Shown: in pieces, positions 3,541 through 18,613 of the stretch
Numbering within the stretch: position 1 is the first letter of the stretch
Layout of the letters: every line of letters starts with the position of its first letter
Virus record (IMG/VR): IMGVR_UViG_3300033145_002347
Location: 1 to 24,458 of that record
Source: a virus
DNA length: 24,458 nt
Reading direction: 5' to 3' (one strand)
The notes under the pieces: model-generated
The model's input: the letters and a program-made list of their open reading frames with translations, nothing else
Database searches by the model: none
Told to the model about the DNA's origin: nothing
Made by a program: the position numbers and the translations under genes

Positions 3541-4677
3541 ATGGAAATTATAAGAGGGTTTATTGAAGGGATGGACGATAAGGGCAGGTATACCGTGTCG
3601 ATGCTCGGGAAAAGAGAGGATAAGTTTTCTTGGATCGAGAATGTCAAACCTATCTATCAGTCTGCGAATATAACGTCTGGGAGAAAAGTTGGCAAGTCCT
3701 GCATTGTGTTAAAGATGCCTTTAGATAATTTTCTGCTTGGAGTATATACGCCTAATGAGGATATCACATCTAAGGTTATTAACGCAGGTACGGGGCAGGA
3801 ATTGTTTTGGGCTGGTAAAGATAGGGTATTAGCACTAGAATCTAATGGAGATATTGGTATTTATAGAGTATCAAGGAAAGATAATGGTGACCTTGAGATG
3901 CCGGCTGATCCCATATTGGGTTATGATAGAGAAAATGATAGAGTTGTTGTTAGTAGTGAAAACATTATGATGAATATGCTCGGAGCTGGGACAAGGGGTA
4001 ATTTAATATTTGAGCAGGACGATGTTACAGGTAATTTTGCATATCTTTTTGAAGGTAAACTATCATTATCAGATCTTTCACCTAGGTTTAGAGTTAGATT
4101 TTCTAATCCTATACTGCCTTCTACCATAAAGGGATCTCCTTTATCAAAAGATGGCATATTCGAATTAACAGTAGATAATTTAATGAGTCCAACCAGAGTA
4201 GTGCCAACAGATTTTACGGCATTAGACTCTATATCTATAAAAATGGGAGCACAAAATAATACTTTATCTGGAGTATCTTTAAGTGTAGGAGAATTTTGTG
4301 ATGTTATGATGGGACCAATGGTATCTGATCCTACTCATATGGTGTCTATTAAAACTAAATTCGGTAGTAAAATAGGGATGAAAACCGACGGTAGTATTGA
4401 ACTAAGCACATTGGAGCATAAATCTTCTGTAAAACTTAATCCTAATGGAAAGATATCAATTATTAATAATGGTATATCTCTTATTGAAATAGCACCAAAT
4501 GGACAAGTGAATATTGTCACCGCAAAAGGAATAGAACTAAAGGCATCTGCTATTGATATTAAGGGAAGTAAAATTAATATCCATACAATAGACGGCACAC
4601 CTGGGTTTAATTTAATACCAATTTGCCCATTTACGGGTGCAAAACATGTCACAAGTAAGGTGAACTCGATTGCATGA
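3541..4677 (+). CDS. Baseplate spike / gp5-VgrG-like protein
   Basis: A 378-aa protein. The N-terminal 85 residues (starting MEIIRGFIEGMDDKGRYTV) look like an OB-type beta barrel, as in gp5, gpV and VgrG spikes. Residues 235-360 are short repeating strands (FGSKIGMKTDGSIEL, VKLNPNGKISIINNG, IEIAPNGQVNIVT, GIELKASAIDIKGSKI) typical of the triple-stranded beta-helix of membrane-piercing spikes. The C-terminus ends CPFTGAKH, a tail seen on some spike and VgrG-like proteins. No lysozyme domain is visible; the transpeptidase-like protein upstream could supply wall activity. A contractile tail is likely but not proven. Confidence 0.7.
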   Translation: MEIIRGFIEGMDDKGRYTVSMLGKREDKFSWIENVKPIYQSANITSGRKVGKSCIVLKMPLDNFLLGVYTPNEDITSKVINAGTGQELFWAGKDRVLALESNGDIGIYRVSRKDNGDLEMPADPILGYDRENDRVVVSSENIMMNMLGAGTRGNLIFEQDDVTGNFAYLFEGKLSLSDLSPRFRVRFSNPILPSTIKGSPLSKDGIFELTVDNLMSPTRVVPTDFTALDSISIKMGAQNNTLSGVSLSVGEFCDVMMGPMVSDPTHMVSIKTKFGSKIGMKTDGSIELSTLEHKSSVKLNPNGKISIINNGISLIEIAPNGQVNIVTAKGIELKASAIDIKGSKINIHTIDGTPGFNLIPICPFTGAKHVTSKVNSIA

Positions 4678-4927
4678 ATTACTTAAGATGGGGAGTTATA
4701 AAAAAATAATTATAGATTTATGTAGATTAACTGAATATCATGGTATTGATGTATCAATGAGGTATATAGATATGGTGAGAGATATTTATGGTTTATGTAA
4801 AGTAGCTGATAAAAGAGCGAATACTGTAATGTTAACATTAAATAGGAAAGGGATAGTTAAAAGAGTAAGACGGTCATATTATATATCTAAGCTCTGGAAA
4901 CCCAAGGGAAGTAAGAAAAATGCTTAA
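4670..4927 (+). CDS. Small winged-helix-like protein
   Basis: An 85-aa protein. The TTG at 4670 has AAGGTG (4657-4662) in position and overlaps the spike gene by 8 bases. ATG 4688 is the alternative but has no ribosome-binding site. Residues 20-72 suggest a small winged-helix fold (VSMRYIDMVRDIYGL, then ANTVMLTLNRKGIVKRVRR and a YYIS wing). The basic C-terminus ends PKGSKKNA. It could bind DNA or be a small structural adaptor. It overlaps the next gene by 8 bases, so the group is one operon. Confidence 0.55.
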   Translation: MHELLKMGSYKKIIIDLCRLTEYHGIDVSMRYIDMVRDIYGLCKVADKRANTVMLTLNRKGIVKRVRRSYYISKLWKPKGSKKNA

Positions 4928-5447
4928 CGAAAACACTCTAAAAAATATCATTATTGATTCTACTGAAGGTAAGGAACCTGATGTTGTTTGGGAATCTATG
5001 ATTCAAGCAATAGAAGGTTACTTGAATGAGAATGCTAAGGTAAACATGGTGTTTTCCGGTACATTAGGGAATAGTCCTTCGCCATTAAACGGACCACATA
5101 CCTTTAATTTAATAACTTCTTTAGATGCAGACTATATCAAACAAACAACAAAAATAACAGGTGGCATGATCGGATTGCCTATTTCACTAACTGCTCAATT
5201 AATGATGTCAAGACCAGAGCATAATACAAGCAACACAATATCGATATTGGCACCATATCCTATACTAACATTAATGGTCGCCATCAACACATTTGGCTTA
5301 CAAAGAGACCAAGCAATGTTAGCGATTGCTACCGGTATAATAAATGGGCTAAGAAGCGCCGTAATGGTTCCGCCAATATTATCAGCCCCTGTTAATGTGG
5401 TTGCTGCTGGATCGGCAGGTGCGTTGACATTTGTGGGTATTATATAA
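4920..5447 (+). CDS. Probable virion or baseplate-associated protein
   Basis: A 175-aa protein. The first 35 residues are helical and acidic, followed by a central beta region (VNMVFSGTLGNSPSPLNGPH). A long glycine-, alanine- and proline-rich hydrophobic C-terminal half runs from about 80 to 175, ending AGSAGALTFVGII. The hydrophobic parts are broken by prolines, so burial in an assembly or membrane interaction are both possible. It overlaps the previous gene by 8 bases (ATG 4920) and closes the spike operon. I do not recognise a family; the role is inferred from its position. Confidence 0.55.
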   Translation: MLNENTLKNIIIDSTEGKEPDVVWESMIQAIEGYLNENAKVNMVFSGTLGNSPSPLNGPHTFNLITSLDADYIKQTTKITGGMIGLPISLTAQLMMSRPEHNTSNTISILAPYPILTLMVAINTFGLQRDQAMLAIATGIINGLRSAVMVPPILSAPVNVVAAGSAGALTFVGII

Positions 5448-5594
5448 GAGCTTGGAAGCGAAGTAATATAAATTGATAGATAATAGTCATTATGATGACG
5501 AATGAACAGCTAACGTAGGTAAATGTTGGTCATGTGAGATTGGGATATGTTATCTCAATGGGGTAAGATAAAAAACAGACAAGAGGATGAGACA
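5448..5594 (+). other. Intergenic region with small hairpins
   Basis: This 147-bp gap has no convincing gene. It contains GTCAT/ATGAC around TATG in the stretch GTCATTATGATGAC, and a 9-bp imperfect stem in ATTGGGATATGTTATCTCAAT around 5540-5560. A ribosome-binding site, AAGAGGA, lies at 5581-5587. I see no clear promoter or terminator. Confidence 0.4.
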
Positions 5595-5945
5595 ATGGAA
5601 TCTAAACAAATGAAATTAAAGCCTAGTTACTATTCAATTACGCCTGCAACTGTGAGATACGATGAAGATTTATGCCCAAATGCTAAGTGGTTATATAGTG
5701 AAATAACTGCCCTAAGCACTAAGGATGGATATTGTTGGGCAAAAAATAGATATTTTGCAGAACTATATCATGTAACTAAAACAACTATATCGAGATGGAT
5801 AAGGCAATTGAAAGAAAAAGGATATATTAAAGTAGAAATGATATACAAACATGATTCAAAAGAGATAGAACAAAGGAATATTTATATTATTGATGACCCT
5901 ATTAGCAAAATTGATAATACCCCCCTCTTTAGTCCAACCTCCTAA
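5595..5945 (+). CDS. Helix-turn-helix (replication-initiator-type) protein, truncated
   Basis: A 116-aa protein. ATG 5595 is preferred over ATG 5547 because AAGAGGA is eight bases upstream. It closely resembles the HTH_36 domain at the N-terminus of many phage and plasmid replisome-organiser proteins: YYSITPATVRYDEDL, then CWAKNRYFAELYHVTKTTIS as helix-turn-helix, then a wing ending KEKGYI. In that family the protein continues into a variable tail. Here the frame stops soon after SKIDNTPLFSPTS. Related tail-like sequence continues out of frame past the stop (see findings), so this looks like a truncated or decayed copy. It may still bind DNA as a small regulator. Confidence 0.65.
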   Translation: MESKQMKLKPSYYSITPATVRYDEDLCPNAKWLYSEITALSTKDGYCWAKNRYFAELYHVTKTTISRWIRQLKEKGYIKVEMIYKHDSKEIEQRNIYIIDDPISKIDNTPLFSPTS

Positions 5946-5950
5946 TAAAA

Positions 5951-5973
5951 TAGTCAATACCCCCTATTGACTA
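5951..5973. repeat. Perfect inverted repeat with a C5 loop
   Basis: TAGTCAATA (5951-5959) and TATTGACTA (5965-5973) form a perfect 9-bp stem around CCCCC. No T-tract follows on the + strand. On the - strand the stem is followed by TTTTATT, so it could stop leftward transcription, although no - strand gene is evident. It falls in the decayed tail of the HTH gene. Confidence 0.5.
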
Positions 5974-6064
5974 AAAGAGCAAGGATAATAATATAAACTT
6001 TTTAATAATACAAGATAACAAAGAAAAGAATAAAAGAAAGAGCCCTGCGTTCTTTTGGTAATTC

Positions 6065-6110
6065 TTGACAGAAAACTATTTAATATTTTATTTTGTGATG
6101 TGTATGTAAT
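6065..6110 (+). promoter_or_regulatory. Candidate phage promoter
   Basis: TTGACA (6065-6070) is followed 24 bases later by GTGATGTGTATGTAAT (6095-6110), a 15-of-16 match to the element at 2643-2658. The tagged gene at 6130 follows after AAGGAAGG. Recurrence of both parts in front of two unrelated genes is the evidence. Confidence 0.5.
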
Positions 6111-6129
6111 AAAATTAAGGAAGGTTAGT

Positions 6130-6492
6130 ATGAAATGTCCAAAAATGATAGTAAAGATAGCAGAAAGTCAACCTCAAGGGATGAAAGATTTAGCGGAGAT
6201 GGAAAAACGTATAGCAAAAAAAGAGCTTGGGACTATTGGGGTTTCAAGTGGTGCCGGAGTTGCTCTTGTTCCTCTTATTTTAGACGGCATGAAGAAAAGA
6301 TATCTTTCCCAAACAATGCCATTCGGACTTATTGGCGGCGTAACCACAGGAGCTATAATAAATTATCTTCTTAAGAAGAAAAGATTTAATACTGCTGCTG
6401 ATCAGTTAGGGTACGATGTACATAGGCAAAGGATTCCATTCGGAGGGGGCACAGAAGTTGAATTATTCAAAAGGGATATAAAAAGAAGCTAA
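6130..6492 (+). CDS. Tagged glycine-rich membrane-active protein
   Basis: A 120-aa protein. The start is ATG 6130, with AAGGAAGG upstream; an in-frame TTG or GTG at or before 6055 would run through the promoter-like region. It begins with the shared tag MKCPKMIVKIA. Two hydrophobic glycine-rich segments follow, at about 34-54 (GTIGVSSGAGVALVPLILDG) and 65-84 (FGLIGGVTTGAIINYLL). Each could span a membrane or pack as a glycine zipper, and a basic tail ends RDIKRS. The architecture matches the tagged proteins at 12573 and 12965. An internal virion protein that acts on the host membrane during DNA entry is a possible role, but this is inference. Confidence 0.6.
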   Translation: MKCPKMIVKIAESQPQGMKDLAEMEKRIAKKELGTIGVSSGAGVALVPLILDGMKKRYLSQTMPFGLIGGVTTGAIINYLLKKKRFNTAADQLGYDVHRQRIPFGGGTEVELFKRDIKRS

Positions 6493-6522
6493 GATAACCC
6501 CTTATAAGATATTATTGGGAGA

Positions 6523-6577
6523 ATAATGACAAGCACGCCACGAAGGAACTCATCTTGCTTTTCTGTCTGTGGGTGCA
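6523..6577 (+). repeat. Duplicated structured element, copy 2
   Basis: This copy matches the first at 111-146 exactly over 36 bases and again at GTGGGTGCA (6569-6577), and keeps the same stem and possible pseudoknot. It lies 73 bases upstream of the tnpB start. A second stem, AACGT/ACGTT, follows it in the stretch AACGTTGGACGACGTT. It may belong to the transposon left end or be an independent RNA element. The first copy has no transposase gene next to it. A 26-codon frame (6526-6606) starts at the ATG inside it. Confidence 0.7.
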
Positions 6578-6618
6578 ACGTTGGACGACGTTCATCCGAA
6601 AGTTAAAGAAAAAACTTG

Positions 6619-6633
6619 CTTTCTATAAGAAAG
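6619..6633 (+). repeat. Hairpin upstream of tnpB
   Basis: CTTTCT (6619-6624) and AGAAAG (6628-6633) form a perfect 6-bp stem around ATA. IS200/IS605 elements carry small subterminal hairpins recognised by TnpA as single-stranded DNA, so this may be a left-end hairpin. The exact left boundary cannot be set from this sequence. Confidence 0.35.
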
Positions 6634-6649
6634 GGATTAGGTTGTTTAT

Positions 6650-7813
6650 ATGAGTAATTTAAAATATTTCAGGTATCGGATTTATCCGAATAAAGAGCAG
6701 ACTGGCAAGATCAATCAAATGATCGGAAATGCTCGTTTTATCTATAATTGGGCTTTACAAGAAAGAATAAAAGCTTATGCGAAAGACAAGACAAGTGTTT
6801 CTGCTTTTACATTAATGAAGCAAGTTGTAGAACTCAAAAAACAACCTGAATATGAATGGTTACAATTATCGGTTGCTCAAAGTTTACAAAATTCTATTGT
6901 GAATATGGAAAAAGCATTTACGAGATTCTTTAAGCAAAAGGAAGGATTCCCTCGATTTAAAAGCAAGAAAAACAAAAGACAAACCGTGAGCTTCCCACAA
7001 AATACAAAGATTAATTTTGAGACTAATAGAATATGGATACAAAAGTTAAAATGGATTCCTGCAAGATTAAGTAGAATATTTGAAGGCAAAATCAAAACTT
7101 CTACAATAATTAAAACTTCAACTAATAAATATTTTGTGAGTATTCTTGTAGAATTACCTGAAATAAAAGTAAAGCAGAAACCAATTAGAAAGAAAACTGC
7201 TGTCGGAATTGATACAGGGATTAAAACGCTTTGCACTTTCTCTGATGGTAAAATTATAGAAAATCCAAAGCATTTAAAATCATCACTTGCAAAACTTAAA
7301 ATATTACAGAGACGAGCAAGCAAGAAAGTAAAAGGAAGTGAAAATAGAAGAAAGGCAAATCGGAAAACAGCATTACTTCACGAGCATATTGCAAATCAAA
7401 GACAAGACTTTCTACACAAACTCACAACTCAGATAGCAAATGAGTATGATACTGTTGTTGTAGAAGACTTGAATATTGCAGGAATGGTTAAAAATCATTG
7501 TCTCGCTCAGAGTATTGCAGATTTAGGACTTGGCAACTTCTGTAAACTTCTTGAATATAAACTTGCGGATCGAGGAAAGAATTATGTCAAAATAGGAAGA
7601 TTTTGTCCTTCCTCGAAATTATGCTCTGTTTGTGGATATATTAAGAAAGACTTAAAACTTTCTGATAGAGTTTGGACTTGTCCAGAGTGCAAGGTTAAAC
7701 ACGAAAGAGATCAAAATGCGTCTCAAAATATTTTAAACTTTGGATTAGAAAAACAAAATTTAATGAACAAAATACCGATGGGGCGTCGGAAATTAAAGCC
7801 TGTGGAGAAATGA
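6650..7813 (+). CDS. tnpB: TnpB, RNA-guided nuclease of the IS200/IS605 group
   Basis: A 387-aa protein of usual TnpB length and order. It has an N-terminal helical domain (YRIYPNKEQTGKINQ, ARFIYNWAL), a RuvC-like core with D188 in GIDTGIK, E272 in VVVEDLN and D354 in RDQNAS, and a zinc finger between them (C325, C328, C344, C347). All catalytic and zinc residues are present, so it could be active. TnpB cleaves DNA guided by an RNA from the 3' end of its own element and helps maintain it. No TnpA is present, so this is a non-autonomous or domesticated copy. The start at 6650 has AGGGATTAGG upstream. The stop overlaps the next ATG. Confidence 0.9.
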   Translation: MSNLKYFRYRIYPNKEQTGKINQMIGNARFIYNWALQERIKAYAKDKTSVSAFTLMKQVVELKKQPEYEWLQLSVAQSLQNSIVNMEKAFTRFFKQKEGFPRFKSKKNKRQTVSFPQNTKINFETNRIWIQKLKWIPARLSRIFEGKIKTSTIIKTSTNKYFVSILVELPEIKVKQKPIRKKTAVGIDTGIKTLCTFSDGKIIENPKHLKSSLAKLKILQRRASKKVKGSENRRKANRKTALLHEHIANQRQDFLHKLTTQIANEYDTVVVEDLNIAGMVKNHCLAQSIADLGLGNFCKLLEYKLADRGKNYVKIGRFCPSSKLCSVCGYIKKDLKLSDRVWTCPECKVKHERDQNASQNILNFGLEKQNLMNKIPMGRRKLKPVEK

Positions 7814-7866: not shown

Positions 7867-7992
7867 GGGAAAGAATATTCATACAAAATGAATAAAATCT
7901 CCCATGATATTTTAGATAGAAGTGATATTAGCAAAGAAGAGAAGATCCGTTTGTTAATTAAAAAGGGATTAGTAAAAGGGGAAGAGCGATGA
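7810..7992 (+). CDS. Short ORF fused across the TnpB right end
   Basis: A 60-aa ORF whose ATG overlaps the tnpB stop (ATGA). Its first dozen residues, MRDLAHSVKQEA, resemble the ordinary C-terminal tail of TnpB-family proteins (often ending HSVKQEA), here read in another frame. The remaining 48 residues are charged and helical (DILDRSDISKEEKIRLL) and look like the end of a phage protein. I read this as the 3' remnant of a gene interrupted by the insertion, now starting in transposon sequence. Its stop overlaps the start of the pyrophosphatase-like gene, so its translation may still be coupled to that gene. Confidence 0.5.
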   Translation: MRDLAHSVKQEAFKRMSSNGKEYSYKMNKISHDILDRSDISKEEKIRLLIKKGLVKGEER

Positions 7993-8630
7993 ATTGTCCG
8001 AGAACAATCATAAAACAAGCTGGACTAAAGGCCGATATTGTCCAAGCCAGAAAAGATACCAACACTAATCCTTCTGAAGCACAGATAAAAGCAGAGAATT
8101 ATAAAAAAGGTGTATTCCGTTGGAATGAATTAGTTATAAAGATTGAAAATCCTAAGGGATCTACTCGCTCAGGTATCAGTCCTGATGGTAATAAATGGTC
8201 TATTAAGATGAAGTACGATTATGGATATATTTTTAATGGGCAGGATGGTAAAGATGGAGACAAAATCGATATCTTCATTGGCGATCATCCCGAAAGCGAA
8301 GTAGTTTATGTTATCGATCAGATGTTTAATGGTAAATTTGATGAACATAAATGTGTTATAGGTGCATTAACCGAGGAAGAAGCCAAGAAAACATATCTTG
8401 CTAACTATGAGAAGGGATGGAAGTGTGGACCTATTACCGCAATGACTGTCGATCACTTTAAGGAATGGGTAAAGAAGGGAAATACCGGCAAACCGGTCAG
8501 TAAACAGGAATTATTTAAAGTAGCTATAATGAAATGCCCAAGAATGATATATAAAACAGCTAAGATAGTTTCTGCATTAGAACGGTATCAAGGTCGTGCT
8601 GTAGAAAAGATTATGAAGAAAGTGACATAG
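7989..8630 (+). CDS. Inorganic-pyrophosphatase-like protein with two tags
   Basis: A 213-aa protein. Residues 1-11 are the shared tag MNCPRTIIKQA. Residues 41-168 match the InPase-type domain found in phage and plasmid polyvalent proteins: GVFRWNELVIKIENPKGSTR, WSIKMKYDYGYI, DGDKIDIFIGD (89-99), FDEHKCVIG, and the closing motif DHFKEWVKKGNTGKP. The DGDKID acidic cluster corresponds to the metal-binding signature of soluble pyrophosphatases. A second tag, MKCPRMIYKTA, occurs at 181-191 (8529-8561), so an internal start could also make a 33-aa peptide. Polyvalent proteins are thought to be injected with phage or plasmid DNA, which agrees with a packaging role for the tag. Activity is unproven. 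Confidence 0.75.
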   Translation: MNCPRTIIKQAGLKADIVQARKDTNTNPSEAQIKAENYKKGVFRWNELVIKIENPKGSTRSGISPDGNKWSIKMKYDYGYIFNGQDGKDGDKIDIFIGDHPESEVVYVIDQMFNGKFDEHKCVIGALTEEEAKKTYLANYEKGWKCGPITAMTVDHFKEWVKKGNTGKPVSKQELFKVAIMKCPRMIYKTAKIVSALERYQGRAVEKIMKKVT

Positions 8631-8641
8631 GAAGAGGAAAG

Positions 8642-9349
8642 ATGGCGAGAGATCTTAAAAAGGCAAGATATAGGTTTAAACAATTAACTGCCGATGAAAA
8701 GCATATTTACATTAATAACCTTGTTGAATTAGAACATAAACTCAATGGGTTAGGGTATGACGTATTCCTAACTTATGGTGGGTTATTGGCAGGAATTCGA
8801 GAAAAGAACTTAATCCTTCACGATAAAGATATCGATATTGCTATTGTCTCAAAAGCGGAGAACAATAACTATGAGACATTAAAAAAAGAAATAGATAGTG
8901 TGTATACTACTTTACCTAACCACAGAGAGATAACAATCCCAAAACCAAAAGATCAATGGGGGCGGTTACGATTTACTGTTTATGCCTCAATGCCACCGGA
9001 TGAATTTAAAAATATGTTTTATGATGTTTATTTATCATTTGAGGATCCAAGTAACCAAGAGCATCAATGCATATATAATTATTTCCCCAGGATGCATGTG
9101 ATTGGGGGAGATGCTGTAAAAAGGTGTTATACATCTTTACCTAAAGATTGGATATTCCCCTTAAAGCGTGAAGGGGAGTTAGGCGGGCATAAATTTTTAG
9201 TACCAAATAAATATGAACTTTGTTTAGAAACGTGGTATAATGATTGGAAGAGACCGGATGATCTATATTTTACTGATCTTAGAATAAAAGATATTATGTT
9301 GCATGAGAATAGTAGGATAGATAAGTTAAAAGCGAAGAACACATCATGA
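8642..9349 (+). CDS. LicD/fukutin-like nucleotidyltransferase
   Basis: A 235-aa protein with the hallmarks of the LicD family: LTYGGLLAGIREKNLILHDK (43-62) followed by DIDIAIV, where GG and the acidic DKDID cluster form the nucleotide- and metal-binding site. LicD-type enzymes transfer phosphocholine or other phospho-groups to sugars; fukutin-like relatives act on glycans. In a phage this would modify a glycan on the virion or the host surface. GAGGAAAG (8633-8640) is only one base from the ATG, so initiation may depend on coupling to the preceding gene. Its stop overlaps the start of the glycosyltransferase fusion (ATGA, 9346-9349). The donor and acceptor cannot be read from sequence. Confidence 0.75.
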   Translation: MARDLKKARYRFKQLTADEKHIYINNLVELEHKLNGLGYDVFLTYGGLLAGIREKNLILHDKDIDIAIVSKAENNNYETLKKEIDSVYTTLPNHREITIPKPKDQWGRLRFTVYASMPPDEFKNMFYDVYLSFEDPSNQEHQCIYNYFPRMHVIGGDAVKRCYTSLPKDWIFPLKREGELGGHKFLVPNKYELCLETWYNDWKRPDDLYFTDLRIKDIMLHENSRIDKLKAKNTS

Positions 9350-12300
9350 GAGAGTATAAATATAAGGTAGGTGAAAGCGAGATAGTTGTTTTAATAAGTG
9401 ATAATGAAATAACTGTTAAGGTCAAGGAGCATGAATATTATGCTCGGTATCCATTATATATTGGGGATATTTCGGAAGATTTAATAGAAGCCATGCTTTA
9501 TGTATTATTTTATGGATTAGAAGAAGTTAAAGAACCAACTGTGATACCTGAGTTGAGAGATCAACGTGAGAAGTATCAAGACATTATTGTGAGTTTCAGT
9601 GCCGGTGCAGATAGTACGGCAGCGGCATTATTAATGCCACCAGATCGTACTCATTGTATATTTTTAAAACGTGATTATGATGATGTTTATACAGGAAACC
9701 AATTAGAATTAGCTAAGATGATGGGTATGATAGTTCCCAATAACATGGAACAGATCCGCTGTCAATATGATAAACCCCATGGCTTCAATGTAGGTATGGG
9801 CTATGCGAGTTTATTAATACCGCTGGTTGATAAATTAAATGCAAAACATATTATTTTTGGAGCGATATTTGAAGATGTAAGTTTTTATTATAAAGATGAG
9901 TTGAAATATCACAAGAAGTTATCACATGCCCGAAGTCGGGATATTTTCGAAGTATTAGAAAGAATAGGAATTTATTGCAGTTATCCCTTGGCTGGGCTAA
10001 GTGAGATCTATACAAATTCAATTTCGAGAGATTCTGTATACGGCAACATTGTTTCTTCCTGTCATGTTGAGATGGAGGGCAAAGCCTGTTTAAAATGTTA
10101 TAAATGTTTACGCAAACAAGGAATGGCCGGGAATAGTTTAGATTTTAATGATCCGTTTATATTAAAGAGAATGAAAACTATAATGAGTAAAAAGCCTCTG
10201 AAAATGGCCGCAAGTACGGTCTATGGAATTCAAAAAAGTGGAAGTAATGCTCCAATGCTACAACGATATATGGATATCGATGTAAGTTTTTTGAAGCGTG
10301 TGAACGAACGCATAACGAAATTTTACTGCAAAGAAGAGATGCAGGGGATAATATTTACTAAATATAGAGAACTCGGGTTAGAGATGCAAACCGAGGATGA
10401 TGAATCAAAGATTGATGAATTCGTGAAGCGGATTAATGATGATACTTTATACGTAATTGAAACACAGCAAGCATTTAGTAGGGGACCTAAAAAAAATGTG
10501 AAGATAGTAATACTTAGCACAGCAGATTATGCCGGTTCAGGGAAAAGGATAAGAGATGCAATTAGAGAATATCACCCAGAGCACAAAATTAGATTAGTAA
10601 CATATAAGAAAGCCAAAAGAGGTTCAGATTATGTATTAACAGAGATGATACCAAAAAAGCTTATACGCAAATATAAAAATATGAGAAAAACGCATAGGTT
10701 TAGAAAGAATGAATTAGATAGAGATGAACGTATTTTAAAAAAATCTTGTAGTCGCATACAGAAATTAATTGATAACTGTGACATAGTGCATTTTAAAGGA
10801 GATGAACCACCTACTTATAAATGGGGAAAATATATAACCATTCCTAAAGATAAGAAAATTATCGTAACTGTTGGAGGTAGTGGGTTTAGAAGAGGGAAAG
10901 ATAAAACAGTACTTACTGAAGCTCGGTTTGGGTTTAAACATTACATGGAGGCAGACCTACGAACTGTATTAACATCAGAATTAAATTATGATGGATTTGA
11001 CGGGATATATACACAGCAAGCAATTGATTGCGGAAAAGAAGAAAACACATTTACTTCGCCCAATGGTCAAATAGTTATTGCCCATTCTCCATCTAATAGG
11101 ATTAAGAAGGGGACAGATAGCATTTTCCTTCCAGTAATGGAGAAACTGAGAAAAGATGGATATAATATAAAAGTCAATATTATACATGGAGTCCCTTTCG
11201 AAAGATGTGTGGAGATGAAGAAAAATGCACATATATTCTTTGACCAAACAGGCGCAGGATTTTATGGTAATTCTGCATTAGAGTCCATGCAATATGGTAT
11301 CCCTACGATTTGTCATGTAAGCAGGGAGGCAATGAGACAGTCTGGTGGCAAGATTAATAAACATCATCCTATGGAATTCTTCTATTCAAATAATCAGGCA
11401 TCATGCTATAGGGCATTTAAAAAATTATTAGATTCAGATTTAATGGAGGTATCCCGCAAGACTAAAGAATTTTGTGATAATTTTCATAGCTATAAAGTAG
11501 TAGCAGATATGTGGGATAATCTTTATCAAGGTTTATTTGCGGATAGACCAATTCCTGAAACTCCTGGCGATACAAAATTATTGCTATATCAATATAGACC
11601 AGCAATTAGGGTGTATAAATACGCAGAGACATTAATGGATATGGGTTATAATGTGACTATTGCCAATAGCGGTAGATTGATAGGCGGGCTTAATTTTCCA
11701 ATACCAATAAAGCATATAGATAATATTGATAAAAATAATTATGATCTATTTTTGAGTTTTAATACGAACATATTACCAAAGGGCATTAAAATCCCTGTAG
11801 TGCAATGTGTAGGAGATCTGAAAGGATATGAGTATAAAAATGATGCCGAAATTTGTAACTTACAGAACTGCATCTATGCTTTCTTCGTAAGCGATACTCA
11901 AAGGAAACAAGCAATAGATATAGTTCCCGAGATAGAGCATAAAAGCTCAGTAATAATTAATGGAATAGTTCATAGCTTAATGCCAAAAAAACTTGCTCCA
12001 AAATTATGGAAAAGTGGGAAGAGGACGGCTGTATGGAGCGGGACATTAAGTGCTATCCCAGGAACAAAAAGATATATGGTTCCTATATTTAATAAATATG
12101 CTGAAATTTATGATCTACATATTTACCCAAGTTTTATTCCGGTAGATTTGACAAACTATAACGGGAATTATACAATTCATAAATCAATAGAACCACAGAA
12201 ACTAATTTATGAGCTGAGTCAATATGATATTGGGCTTCTTGTATGGAATAAAATAACCTATGAGCTAAGTTGTAGTTTGCCAAATAAACTTTATGAATAT

Positions 12301-12501
12301 CATGCTGCTGGGTTGTCTATAGTGCACAATTATCATGAAGGCTGTGAATTTGTAGAACAGAAAGCTATTTCTACTCAAGGTAAAAAACATCAAAAGCCGT
12401 TATATTATTCTGATCAGAATTCCATTCTTGAGGATGGTTTAAATAGAGCATTAGGTAAAAATATTGATGAGAAAAATGATTTAGAAGAGATAACTCATTG
12501 A
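9346..12501 (+). CDS. QueC-like PP-loop ATPase fused to two glycosyltransferase-like regions
   Basis: A 1051-aa protein. Residues about 75-270 resemble QueC/ExsB PP-loop enzymes: SFSAGADST at 83-91 stands for SGGxDS, and C239-x8-C248-x2-C251-x2-C254 has the spacing of the QueC zinc site. Residues about 385-740 look like a GT-B glycosyltransferase (start KKNVKIVILSTADYAGSGKR; donor-site-like GFYGNSALESMQYGIP). Residues about 755-1030 look like a second GT-B unit (YNVTIANSGR; RTAVWSGTLS; LPNKLYEYHAAGLSIVHNYH). The first half may activate a base or other acid with ATP, and the rest may transfer sugars. Substrates are unknown. It is coupled to the LicD-like gene, and both may modify DNA or virion proteins. 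Confidence 0.7.
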   Translation: MREYKYKVGESEIVVLISDNEITVKVKEHEYYARYPLYIGDISEDLIEAMLYVLFYGLEEVKEPTVIPELRDQREKYQDIIVSFSAGADSTAAALLMPPDRTHCIFLKRDYDDVYTGNQLELAKMMGMIVPNNMEQIRCQYDKPHGFNVGMGYASLLIPLVDKLNAKHIIFGAIFEDVSFYYKDELKYHKKLSHARSRDIFEVLERIGIYCSYPLAGLSEIYTNSISRDSVYGNIVSSCHVEMEGKACLKCYKCLRKQGMAGNSLDFNDPFILKRMKTIMSKKPLKMAASTVYGIQKSGSNAPMLQRYMDIDVSFLKRVNERITKFYCKEEMQGIIFTKYRELGLEMQTEDDESKIDEFVKRINDDTLYVIETQQAFSRGPKKNVKIVILSTADYAGSGKRIRDAIREYHPEHKIRLVTYKKAKRGSDYVLTEMIPKKLIRKYKNMRKTHRFRKNELDRDERILKKSCSRIQKLIDNCDIVHFKGDEPPTYKWGKYITIPKDKKIIVTVGGSGFRRGKDKTVLTEARFGFKHYMEADLRTVLTSELNYDGFDGIYTQQAIDCGKEENTFTSPNGQIVIAHSPSNRIKKGTDSIFLPVMEKLRKDGYNIKVNIIHGVPFERCVEMKKNAHIFFDQTGAGFYGNSALESMQYGIPTICHVSREAMRQSGGKINKHHPMEFFYSNNQASCYRAFKKLLDSDLMEVSRKTKEFCDNFHSYKVVADMWDNLYQGLFADRPIPETPGDTKLLLYQYRPAIRVYKYAETLMDMGYNVTIANSGRLIGGLNFPIPIKHIDNIDKNNYDLFLSFNTNILPKGIKIPVVQCVGDLKGYEYKNDAEICNLQNCIYAFFVSDTQRKQAIDIVPEIEHKSSVIINGIVHSLMPKKLAPKLWKSGKRTAVWSGTLSAIPGTKRYMVPIFNKYAEIYDLHIYPSFIPVDLTNYNGNYTIHKSIEPQKLIYELSQYDIGLLVWNKITYELSCSLPNKLYEYHAAGLSIVHNYHEGCEFVEQKAISTQGKKHQKPLYYSDQNSILEDGLNRALGKNIDEKNDLEEITH

Positions 12502-12530
12502 CAAAAGATATTATAAATTATTAATATCTT
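12498..12530 (+). promoter_or_regulatory. TTGACA box with overlapping inverted repeat
   Basis: TTGACA (12498-12503) overlaps the end of the fusion gene. AAGATATTA (12505-12513) and TAATATCTT (12522-12530) form a perfect 9-bp inverted repeat right after it. TAATAT (12522-12527) at an 18-bp gap could be a -10 box. The repeat would then overlap the promoter as an operator, or act as a weak AT-rich terminator for the gene upstream. Confidence 0.45.
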
Positions 12531-12572
12531 GTTGTTAAAAATATAGTGTGGATTTATAAAAGGAGAAAACCT

Positions 12573-15930: not shown

Positions 15931-16953
15931 ATGCGAGATGTTGTACCATACAGGAATTATTTAAGAGCCCTGATATATTCGGGGCTCAGTGTTCCACAGA
16001 TAATAGTATATCTTAATAATTCAAATCTTAATGCACTACTTGATGAAGATTTAAAAAAAGAAATAAATAAATGTGTTAGCTTCCCTGATGGCAAGGATAT
16101 GAGAGAAGCAAATATGAAAGCAATAAAAAATAATACTCCATGGACAGCACATCAATCTGTAATAGATACGTTTTATCCTCACGAAGATGAGTTTATAGGC
16201 TTTGTAGATTTTTATGTTAATACAAGAGTACCTGATGGTTTTTTTGATCAAGTAGATAAAAGAGGTAGAAAAAGGATAGGCGTGGGCAGGAGAAGGAAAG
16301 TGCCGAAATCATTGGTGCAAAAGATAATGCAAATACCAGAGATATCGGAAGCTAAAAGATGGTTTGAATGTGGGCTAATGACGTCTGTACCACTACATAA
16401 AATACGTTTACTATGGAATAATAATCGTAGTTATCAAGAAAGATATGGATATGCAACATTAACTAAATATTTCTATTATTATTGGGATGTTTCAAAAAGC
16501 AGACAACGCGAAAAGGGATTTACCAAAGCGGATATAGCATCTTATTTATTATTAGATTCCACAAATGAATCTTACGCAGCGCATAGGTTTATGATAGACA
16601 AATCTTCGTCTCAAACAGTATATTTTCTTGGGTATATGAGTAAAGAAGAAATAGATTATATTAATAAACAAATACTCGGTATGTTAACAATAGAAATGGT
16701 CGGGGCATTTAAAAAATCAGGTAAATCTTTACCTCAATGGATATATCAATTGTGGAGCGACATTAATAATATGCTTAGAGAAGACGAACTGAGAGGTAAA
16801 GGACCACAAGAAGATATCGATGAGATGATGAGAATAATTCAAAGGATAGATGATGTTCATAGCAAACGCAGGACATTAGATGATATACGTAACGAAGAAA
16901 TTGATGGCAGAAAACATATCAAGGATACTGCGATAGATGTTACCAAAAGGTAG
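15931..16953 (+). CDS. Terminase-linked protein, role uncertain
   Basis: A 340-aa protein with GAGGTAGG upstream and only one base after the previous stop. It overlaps the terminase gene by 17 bases. It is mainly helical and charged, with a very basic patch (KRGRKRIGVGRRRKVPKS) around residues 109-126 that could bind DNA, and a charged C-terminal helix. Position next to the large subunit makes a small-terminase or packaging-accessory role possible, although it is long for a small terminase. There is no clear helix-turn-helix. This is inference from context. Confidence 0.45.
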   Translation: MRDVVPYRNYLRALIYSGLSVPQIIVYLNNSNLNALLDEDLKKEINKCVSFPDGKDMREANMKAIKNNTPWTAHQSVIDTFYPHEDEFIGFVDFYVNTRVPDGFFDQVDKRGRKRIGVGRRRKVPKSLVQKIMQIPEISEAKRWFECGLMTSVPLHKIRLLWNNNRSYQERYGYATLTKYFYYYWDVSKSRQREKGFTKADIASYLLLDSTNESYAAHRFMIDKSSSQTVYFLGYMSKEEIDYINKQILGMLTIEMVGAFKKSGKSLPQWIYQLWSDINNMLREDELRGKGPQEDIDEMMRIIQRIDDVHSKRRTLDDIRNEEIDGRKHIKDTAIDVTKR

Positions 16954-18613
16954 TTTCTCAAAACAATACGGCTTAGCCGATAAGGCTCAATCGCTGCTTA
17001 TGTTCAAGGATGAGCCGTATTCATTGGATTCATTCCCTTTTTGGAGAGTTATCTTTGATGATGTAAGATTATCTCATAAAGTAGATCAAGTAGATAGAAA
17101 GTTAGCATTCAAATGCTCGCGGCAGGTGGGAAAATCTGTATCTATTGGTGCTCTTGGTTGTATATCTAGTATGATGTATCGTAATTTTACAACTATAATA
17201 TGCCAACCTACCGATAAACAGATAAGTCAATTTTCTGTAGATATTATGAAAAGATTTATGGGAGAATCCTTAATAACAGAGAAATGGCTATATGACTATA
17301 AAAAAACAGAGCGTCAAGTAAAGAAAATGTCCTTAACTACTGGTTCGAGAGTTGTATTAGCGAATATTTATGCTTCAGTATTGTCAGTCAGAGGTACAGC
17401 ATCAGATTTTTGTTTGTTCGATGAGTATGCAGATATTCCACCTGAAAATGCAGTTATTGTTTTAAACTCATCTAGACGGTCTCCGCATAAATTTGTTGTA
17501 TATTCAGGAACACCTAAAGCACCTGATAACCCATTAGAACAAGTATGGCAAGAAAGCTCAATGAACGAATGGATGGTTAGATGCACTCATTGTAATTTTT
17601 GGAATGGCCCGCTCGGTGGTGATGGAACTGATAAAAGAATATATAATATAGGCAAAAAGGGGCTTATATGCAAAAAATGCGGTAGTAGGATATATGCAAG
17701 AGATGGTGAATGGATCGAAACTTTTCCAGATCGTCATATTGGAGGATATCATATAAACGAGCTTATGGTTGATCCTTCTGCCCCCGGGTCCACATCATGG
17801 AAAGAAATATTATATAGGATGAAACATGACCCTATTGTCACTGTATATAATGAAATATTGGGTGTTTCATATGCAGACAACACTCATCCACTTACAAATA
17901 AGATTATAGCATCTATGTGTAATCCCAATAGAAATTATGTTAATACAATAGAAGAGATGAAAGAGGTGAGGGTTTCTCATTGGCCGGCATTTGCTGGATT
18001 AGACTGGGCGATGGAAACGGCACCAAGGGGTGGTAGTACTGTAACGATAAAGTCTTATACGATGCTAACAATTACACAATTAAATATGATAACTAATAGG
18101 TTAGAGGTGTTGTTCCGTAGAAAATATTATGATATGGCCGGATTTGATGCTGATGATCCGGATGCAGTAGTTAATGATATAGCAAAATGGTGTAATGCAG
18201 CAAAAGTAAAGGTATTAGGATGTGATTATGGTGCAGGGCATAAAGAAAATCAAAGATTAAAAGCTATTCTCGGTAATGATAGAGTTATGGAAATTCAATA
18301 TCTTGGCGATATGGGCGATAAATATATATTTAGTTCTGAAGGAGATAAATGGCTTGCTCCGAGAACAGTTGCCATGAACGAATGCATAGACGCAATACGT
18401 AATGGTGAATATGAATTCGCTAAATTTTCTGGAGAAACCTCCGAATATGTGAAAGACCTTACTACAATATATAGATATAATGATCCAGTGAGGCGGACAT
18501 TGCGTTTTGGGAAGACGTTGCCGGATGATTGGTTCCAAAATCTTACATATAATTTACTTGCAAAGCTATGGTTTCAAGGTGAATTTGATAGATTCCCATG
18601 GGATAAAAAATAA
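16937..18613 (+). CDS. Terminase large subunit
   Basis: A 558-aa DNA-packaging motor. The ATPase has a Walker A-like SRQVGKS (61-67), Walker B DFCLFDEY (157-164) and the coupling motif SGTP (190-193). A zinc-binding insertion follows, C216-x2-C219 and C245-x2-C248, as in GpA-type terminases. The nuclease half shows candidate metal ligands D356 (FAGLDWAME), D430 (LGCDYGAG) and D530/D531 (PDDWF). It cuts concatemeric DNA and pumps it through the portal. The start overlaps the 340-aa gene; with this start the N-terminus MLPKGSFSKQYGLADKAQSL is reasonable. Confidence 0.9.
   Translation: MLPKGSFSKQYGLADKAQSLLMFKDEPYSLDSFPFWRVIFDDVRLSHKVDQVDRKLAFKCSRQVGKSVSIGALGCISSMMYRNFTTIICQPTDKQISQFSVDIMKRFMGESLITEKWLYDYKKTERQVKKMSLTTGSRVVLANIYASVLSVRGTASDFCLFDEYADIPPENAVIVLNSSRRSPHKFVVYSGTPKAPDNPLEQVWQESSMNEWMVRCTHCNFWNGPLGGDGTDKRIYNIGKKGLICKKCGSRIYARDGEWIETFPDRHIGGYHINELMVDPSAPGSTSWKEILYRMKHDPIVTVYNEILGVSYADNTHPLTNKIIASMCNPNRNYVNTIEEMKEVRVSHWPAFAGLDWAMETAPRGGSTVTIKSYTMLTITQLNMITNRLEVLFRRKYYDMAGFDADDPDAVVNDIAKWCNAAKVKVLGCDYGAGHKENQRLKAILGNDRVMEIQYLGDMGDKYIFSSEGDKWLAPRTVAMNECIDAIRNGEYEFAKFSGETSEYVKDLTTIYRYNDPVRRTLRFGKTLPDDWFQNLTYNLLAKLWFQGEFDRFPWDKK

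Follow-up and report, generated by a model that had tools for sequence, protein, structure and literature searches.

Sugars of the Wbp type can carry a uronamide made by WbpS (PMC7468200) or an acetamidine made by WbpG (PMC10607449). WbpG and WbuX are N-acetyl sugar amidotransferases (NASATs; TIGR03573, PMC10607449) that combine a PP-loop with a tetracysteine zinc site, are encoded in surface-sugar clusters and are proposed to carry out an ammonia-dependent sugar modification. WbpS and WbqG are AsnB-like uronamide synthases proposed to convert an amino-uronic carboxylate into an amide at the expense of ATP (PMC7468200). QueC (PF06508), the 7-cyano-7-deazaguanine synthase, also has a PP-loop, followed by a C-terminal C-x8/9-C-x2-C-x2-C motif, and its canonical substrate and catalytic signatures are YxQxHxxE, VPxRN, YPDC and Cys-Tyr, with the Tyr after the first zinc Cys (PMC13329287). 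Here we analyzed an IMG/VR virus record of 24,458 bases, which may be a fragment and is called the window below. In it, one open reading frame (ORF) fuses a QueC-like PP-loop domain of the family DUF6395 to two glycosyltransferase (GT) units. We propose that this fusion most likely assembles a surface sugar and modifies it chemically instead of acting on DNA.

The frame is unbroken from an ATG at 9346 to a stop ending at 12501 and encodes 1051 amino acids (aa; Table 1). The first-pass annotation, made from the DNA alone, had picked out SFSAGADST and C-x8-C-x2-C-x2-C in this chain, and both are there, with SAGADS at aa 85-90 and the Cys site at aa 239-254. When the chain was shuffled 20,000 times, no shuffle held both motifs and one held the Cys pattern alone, so the combination is not due to chance. 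A domain search of each third returned DUF6395, a GT4-type GT-B enzyme and a probable GT-B enzyme, and these matches bear out the annotated fusion of a QueC-like domain with a zinc-type Cys site to two GT units, less firmly for the second of these.

In Pfam, the N-terminal domain matched DUF6395 (PF19932) at 47.2-50.5 bits against a gathering cut-off of 25, covering profile positions 3-121 of 174, and matched QueC more weakly, at 16-26 bits with a cut-off of 22. By these family matches it is a member of DUF6395, a QueC-like Pfam family, and not a QueC. We aligned 26 DUF6395 members from phages, marine Euryarchaeota, one alphaproteobacterium and one deltaproteobacterium. The PP-loop residues S85, G87, D89 and S90 and the four cysteines are invariant in all 26, and the full invariant set (PP-loop, R109, S219-E220, the four Cys, K253, K257 and P284) is present in the window, which is itself one of the sequences from which the set was taken. 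A relaxed PP-loop, S[GA]GxDS, occurs in 26/26 members and the strict SGGxDS in 18/26; the Cys motif is found in all of them with a first spacing of 7-11 residues and is followed by ~100 further aa. The exact spacing had been read as that of the QueC zinc site. This holds in that the Cys site is collinear with the QueC motif, but C-x8 itself was counted in only 2/26 sampled QueCs against 20/26 DUF6395s and is therefore not diagnostic of QueC.

The 26 QueCs of this comparison were selected on their family score and on having a PP-loop and the Cys motif, independently of the four substrate motifs. YxQxHxxE, VPxRN, YPDC and Cys-Tyr are each present in 25-26 of them and in none of the 26 DUF6395 members. 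A profile comparison of DUF6395 with QueC was collinear from the PP-loop to the Cys motif over 189 columns at a probability of 18%, and a profile of the phage subset reached 44% over a shorter stretch, which suggests that DUF6395 is a remote relative of QueC, a profile alignment alone being no proof of common descent. DUF6395 further differs from QueC in its gene neighbors and its extra C-terminal part. A 2026 survey of the QueC superfamily covers WbpG-like sugar amidotransferases and makes no mention of DUF6395 (PMC13329287), and our literature search returned no paper on the family. QueC homologs in genomes of marine Euryarchaeota and one deltaproteobacterium (L063-L067) keep YGQKH, VPNRN and YPDC and read SYNPD..G.SSG..G where the zinc cysteines would stand; they are apparently zinc-less QueCs.

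The first GT unit (GT1, aa ~384-733) gave PDB profile matches to PglA, MshA and BshA-type GTs (best E 4e-8), a match to phrog_2170 at E 7e-4 and a Pfam PF00534 match below the cut-off; on these matches it is a GT4-type GT-B glycosyltransferase. The second unit (GT2', aa ~744-1036), which carries the motif LPNK..EY..AG.P, is probably a GT-B glycosyltransferase as well. This assignment is weaker than that of GT1 because its TuaH matches are weak (E 0.028 in the window and 4.6e-4 in its relative from viral contig L054, both far below the cut-off) and a search of PDB sequences gave no match. The stop codon of the LicD-like gene just upstream overlaps the start of the fusion by 4 nt (ATGA), and hydropathy analysis found no membrane segment in either protein. 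Against L054, GT1 (dN 0.20, dS 1.54) and the LicD-like gene (dN 0.21, dS saturated) are both under purifying selection.

Relatives in viral contigs were recovered with alignment queries. Used as single sequences, the full-length chain, its N-terminal third and each GT region found none in the same contigs, nor did tblastn of phage records, and a further scan for phage DUF6395 members added no others. Each third of the fusion occurs as a separate gene in these relatives. Free phage PP-loop proteins of ~361-363 aa (L008, L009 and L031) are 33-36% identical to the window over the whole ~365-aa domain and stop where linker 1 begins, and the free GT1 of L054 starts where that linker ends. The window and the three stand-alone proteins form one clade (support 100/100), which joins phage L032 and the alphaproteobacterial L011 (100/97). 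Phage contig L032 holds two tandem DUF6395 paralogs (4329-6725), followed by an alanine dehydrogenase-like gene.

The backbone of L054 is common to the window (inorganic pyrophosphatase [InPase]-like gene 76%, LicD 67-69%, structural-region genes 58-67% identical), and the cassette between has been swapped: L054 has a radical SAM gene, a possible GT gene with no Pfam match, LicD, a free GT2' (31-33%) and a free GT1 (71%), and no DUF6395 was detected in it. The radical SAM gene, which has no counterpart in the window cassette, encodes a small protein (1043-1750) whose best NCBIfam match is the viperin family, at E 5e-10 and 39 bits against a cut-off of 180. In phage L057, a GT-A-like domain, read from the sequence without a family search, precedes GT1 and GT2' in a single 939-aa chain; its GT1-GT2' tail is 37% identical to the window in the same order (38% for GT2'), so the PP-loop domain of the window replaces a GT-A domain in that place. 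To the first-pass annotation, a fusion to two sugar-transfer units was new. The architecture is uncommon, yet GT2-family domains of GT-A type are fused to DUF6395 in ~1210-aa chains of marine Euryarchaeota (L012 and L019), and since the domain order there is reversed and the DUF6395 clade is a different one, these fusions arose independently. By these alignments, the fusion is a case of module assembly, and phage glycosylation cassettes are built from swappable modules.

DUF6395 belongs to polysaccharide and nucleotide-sugar clusters. Among 104 neighbor proteins of 20 cellular DUF6395 genes, many of them from related marine archaea and hence not independent, the commonest were NAD-dependent sugar epimerases or dehydratases, GT4 and GT2 enzymes, nucleoside diphosphate (NDP)-sugar dehydrogenases and ABC-2 exporters, and six were further DUF6395 copies. 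A TviC-like epimerase lies within 0.7 kb at 12/20 loci, and a PseG/GT-B-like gene is conserved at 15/20, mostly within 0.6 kb. On a Priestia plasmid, DUF6395 is near genes for GalU, a GT-D enzyme, a galactosyltransferase and a pyruvyl transferase. The closest cellular relative of the window domain, in L011, stands in the order GT4, GT2, NDP-sugar dehydrogenase, DUF6395, Gfo/Idh oxidoreductase, hexapeptide acyltransferase, DegT aminotransferase, GT4 and WecB epimerase, enzyme classes that match the Wbp pathway (WbpA, B, D, E and I; PMC10622841). Neither a NASAT nor a QueC was detected in the L011 genome, whose completeness is unknown. In phages, WbpB, whose product is 3-keto-GlcNAcA (PMC10622841), is found 27 bp downstream of DUF6395 in L031 (E 2e-87 to a solved WbpB) and two genes after a GT1 gene in L055, and Pfam places GT genes next to or near the stand-alone DUF6395 of L009 and L010.

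We propose an amidating role because DUF6395 lies beside WbpB and other sugar genes, and because sugars of the Wbp type are amidated or amidinated by WbpS and WbpG. As a PP-loop ATP pyrophosphatase, DUF6395 would use ATP to activate a group on a sugar, yielding AMP and pyrophosphate, and ammonia or another amine would then displace the activated group to give an amide or amidine; uronic or 3-amino sugars are its likely substrates, and the four-Cys site presumably binds zinc. The two GT domains would add sugars, the LicD-like protein would probably add a phospho-substituent, and the finished glycan would be placed on the virion, more likely than on the host. A glycan role for the cassette is highly probable, and given such a role, sugar amidation stands at about an even chance. 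A modular phage glycan cassette in which DUF6395 amidates a sugar, whichever the target, falls slightly short of that. The fullest version, in which DUF6395 is an unrecognized PP-loop class of sugar-amidating enzymes with a QueC-type zinc site that does the job of WbpG and WbpS in archaea, bacteria and phages, and which this phage has fused to its own GTs so that an amidated or amidinated sugar ends up on the capsid, is tentative and, taken as a whole, rather unlikely.

Comparable amidation by WbpS and WbpG uses other folds or other Cys topologies than that of DUF6395. In NASATs the Cys pairs (CxxC...CxxC) come before the PP-loop, whereas in the window they come after it; the window had no TIGR03573 match, the profile alignment with NASATs spans the Rossmann part only, and NASAT membership was rejected. 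AsnB-like enzymes such as WbpS consist of a glutaminase plus a synthetase, an architecture not present in the window fusion. Several points weigh against the reading as an amidating glycan cassette. Amidation rests on the analogy of PP-loop chemistry and on neighboring genes, no glycan acceptor was identified, and the literature search found no known reaction for any DUF6395 member. The PP-loop reads SAGADS instead of SGGxDS, the strict form being missing in 8/26 members; no WbpB or other sugar-making gene was recognized in the window fragment; and the Gfo/Idh and acyltransferase matches of L011 are below curated cut-offs and could also fit a GnnA/GnnB-like route to a 3-amino sugar.

The same chemistry could be aimed at the host, with the cassette changing its surface polysaccharide so as to mask receptors or exclude superinfection, a reading that overlaps the one above and that we consider rather doubtful. 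The cellular DUF6395 contexts examined are all polysaccharide or nucleotide-sugar clusters, GT1 homologs also occur in lipopolysaccharide or exopolysaccharide clusters of Agrobacterium and Priestia, and LicD-like proteins usually decorate cell-surface polymers. However, no gene of the window was recognized as encoding a flippase, an O-antigen polymerase or a GtrABC-like membrane protein. The major head gene is followed by a GT1 relative immediately in L059 and with one gene in between in L056, and the GT1 relatives of L055 and L060 are close to terminase or tail genes. Because of these head-gene positions and the lack of a membrane segment in the fusion and the LicD-like protein, virion glycosylation is favored, not decided, and we regard the virion as a somewhat better candidate than the host surface. 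Mycobacteriophage virions are naturally glycosylated (Freeman et al. 2023, cited in PMC12691614). To our knowledge, the glycosylation systems of mycobacteriophage virions include no PP-loop enzyme. Another possibility, unlikely though still to be taken seriously, is that the PP-loop domain carries out a different ATP-dependent step in glycan assembly, such as ligation of an amino acid to a uronate or thiolation, or plays a non-catalytic part in a GT complex. The chemistry of PP-loop enzymes is varied (for example LarE and GMPS; PMC13329287), amino acids are possible on Wbp and Vim sugars (PMC7468200), and both the SAGADS motif and the further stretch that follows the cysteines would suit such a departure. 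No sulfur-transfer partner was recognized, and the invariance of the PP-loop and Cys residues across the 26 members speaks against DUF6395 being an inactive domain.

The first-pass annotation suggested that the fusion might make a glycosylated deazaguanine-type DNA base, or attach a nucleobase or sugar to a protein, and neither of the two nucleobase readings is supported. In the first, the GTs would glycosylate a 7-deazaguanine base supplied by the QueC-like domain. Use of this pathway by phages is known, and the domain has a QueC-like Cys topology and a weak QueC profile match. Yet the four QueC signatures are missing throughout DUF6395, a separate QueC coexists with DUF6395 in 5/7 cellular genomes (none was seen in the other two), and PTPS/QueD, TGT and FolE were not found in 11 virus records (the window and ten related ones), a result that is supporting rather than conclusive because all of these may be fragments; no family search was made for QueE. 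With the substrate motifs absent and no linkage to QueD, FolE or TGT in these records, the deazaguanine pathway was rejected, and given the glycan neighborhoods we consider this DNA modification very improbable. A Cap9- or QatC-like attachment of a nucleobase to a protein, or an anti-defense role built on it, is equally improbable. The QueC fold has indeed been recruited for protein deazaguanylation (PMC13329287, PMC12424860 and PMC11996544), but most of the QueC signature is retained in Cap9 and not in DUF6395, no QatB or CD-NTase neighbor was recognized where glycan genes are found instead, and PADLOC defense models gave no match at E up to 1, on which ground a defense system was also rejected.

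Table 1. Features of the fusion cassette and its borders in the window (coordinates from the first base of the window)
Feature	Position	Strand	Basis
Fusion of DUF6395 PP-loop domain, GT4 and second GT-B-like domain	9346..12501	+	Open frame, family matches
DUF6395 / QueC-like PP-loop domain, aa 1-369	9346..10452	+	PF19932 match; free phage homologs
PP-loop SAGADS, aa 85-90, ATP alpha-hydrolase motif	9598..9615	+	S85, G87, D89 and S90 invariant in 26 DUF6395
C239-x8-C248-x2-C251-x2-C254, presumed Zn site	10060..10107	+	Four Cys invariant 26/26; collinear with QueC Zn motif
Linker 1, aa 370-383 (VIETQQAFSRGPKK region)	10453..10494	+	Between end of free PP-loop protein and start of free L054 GT1 (MVKIVILS...)
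GT1, GT4-type GT-B glycosyltransferase, aa 384-733	10495..11544	+	Free L054 gene 71% identical; PDB GT4 matches
Linker 2, aa 734-743	11545..11574	+	Alignment: between end of free L054 GT1 and start of free L054 GT2'
GT2', probable GT-B glycosyltransferase, aa 744-1051	11575..12501	+	Free L054 gene, fused L057 domain, weak TuaH matches
LicD-like phosphotransferase gene, 235 aa	8642..9349	+	PF04991 LicD E 2e-4; NF045866 cholinephosphotransferase Mf1 E 8e-8
PF18823 InPase-like phage protein, left flank	7989..8630	+	PF18823 E 1e-47; L054 76% identical over aa 1-180
Right cassette border	12490..12540	+	51-bp block, DNA 86% identical to block right after GT1 in L054

Beyond the cassette, family searches place the terminase large subunit at 16937-18613 of the window. 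The PF18823 "inorganic pyrophosphatase" protein (7989-8630) just 5' of the cassette matches PHROG families that include head, endolysin and DarB-like antirestriction proteins, and a complete IS605 OrfB/TnpB-type gene lies at 6650-7813 (PF01385, PF07282 and PF12323). A promoter-like TTGACA-N18-TAATAT at 12498-12527 overlaps the stop of the fusion inside the right-border block; such sites occur in the region no more often than in shuffled sequence. A recurrent leader, M-x-C-P-x-x-[IV]-x-K-x-A, opens at least five otherwise unrelated ORFs (window 2203, 6130, 7989, 12573 and 12965, plus in frame at 8529; L054 7024 and 7846), with DNA ~90% identical between unrelated genes, and may serve, as in T4, for capsid targeting or sorting.

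The fusion is assembled from parts of known kinds. If our proposal is true, DUF6395 would gain a concrete and testable function in ATP-dependent sugar modification and would represent a further, separate use of the QueC scaffold in glycan chemistry. If the sugar is carried on the virion, the finding would be relevant to how phages escape their hosts' notice or attach to them.

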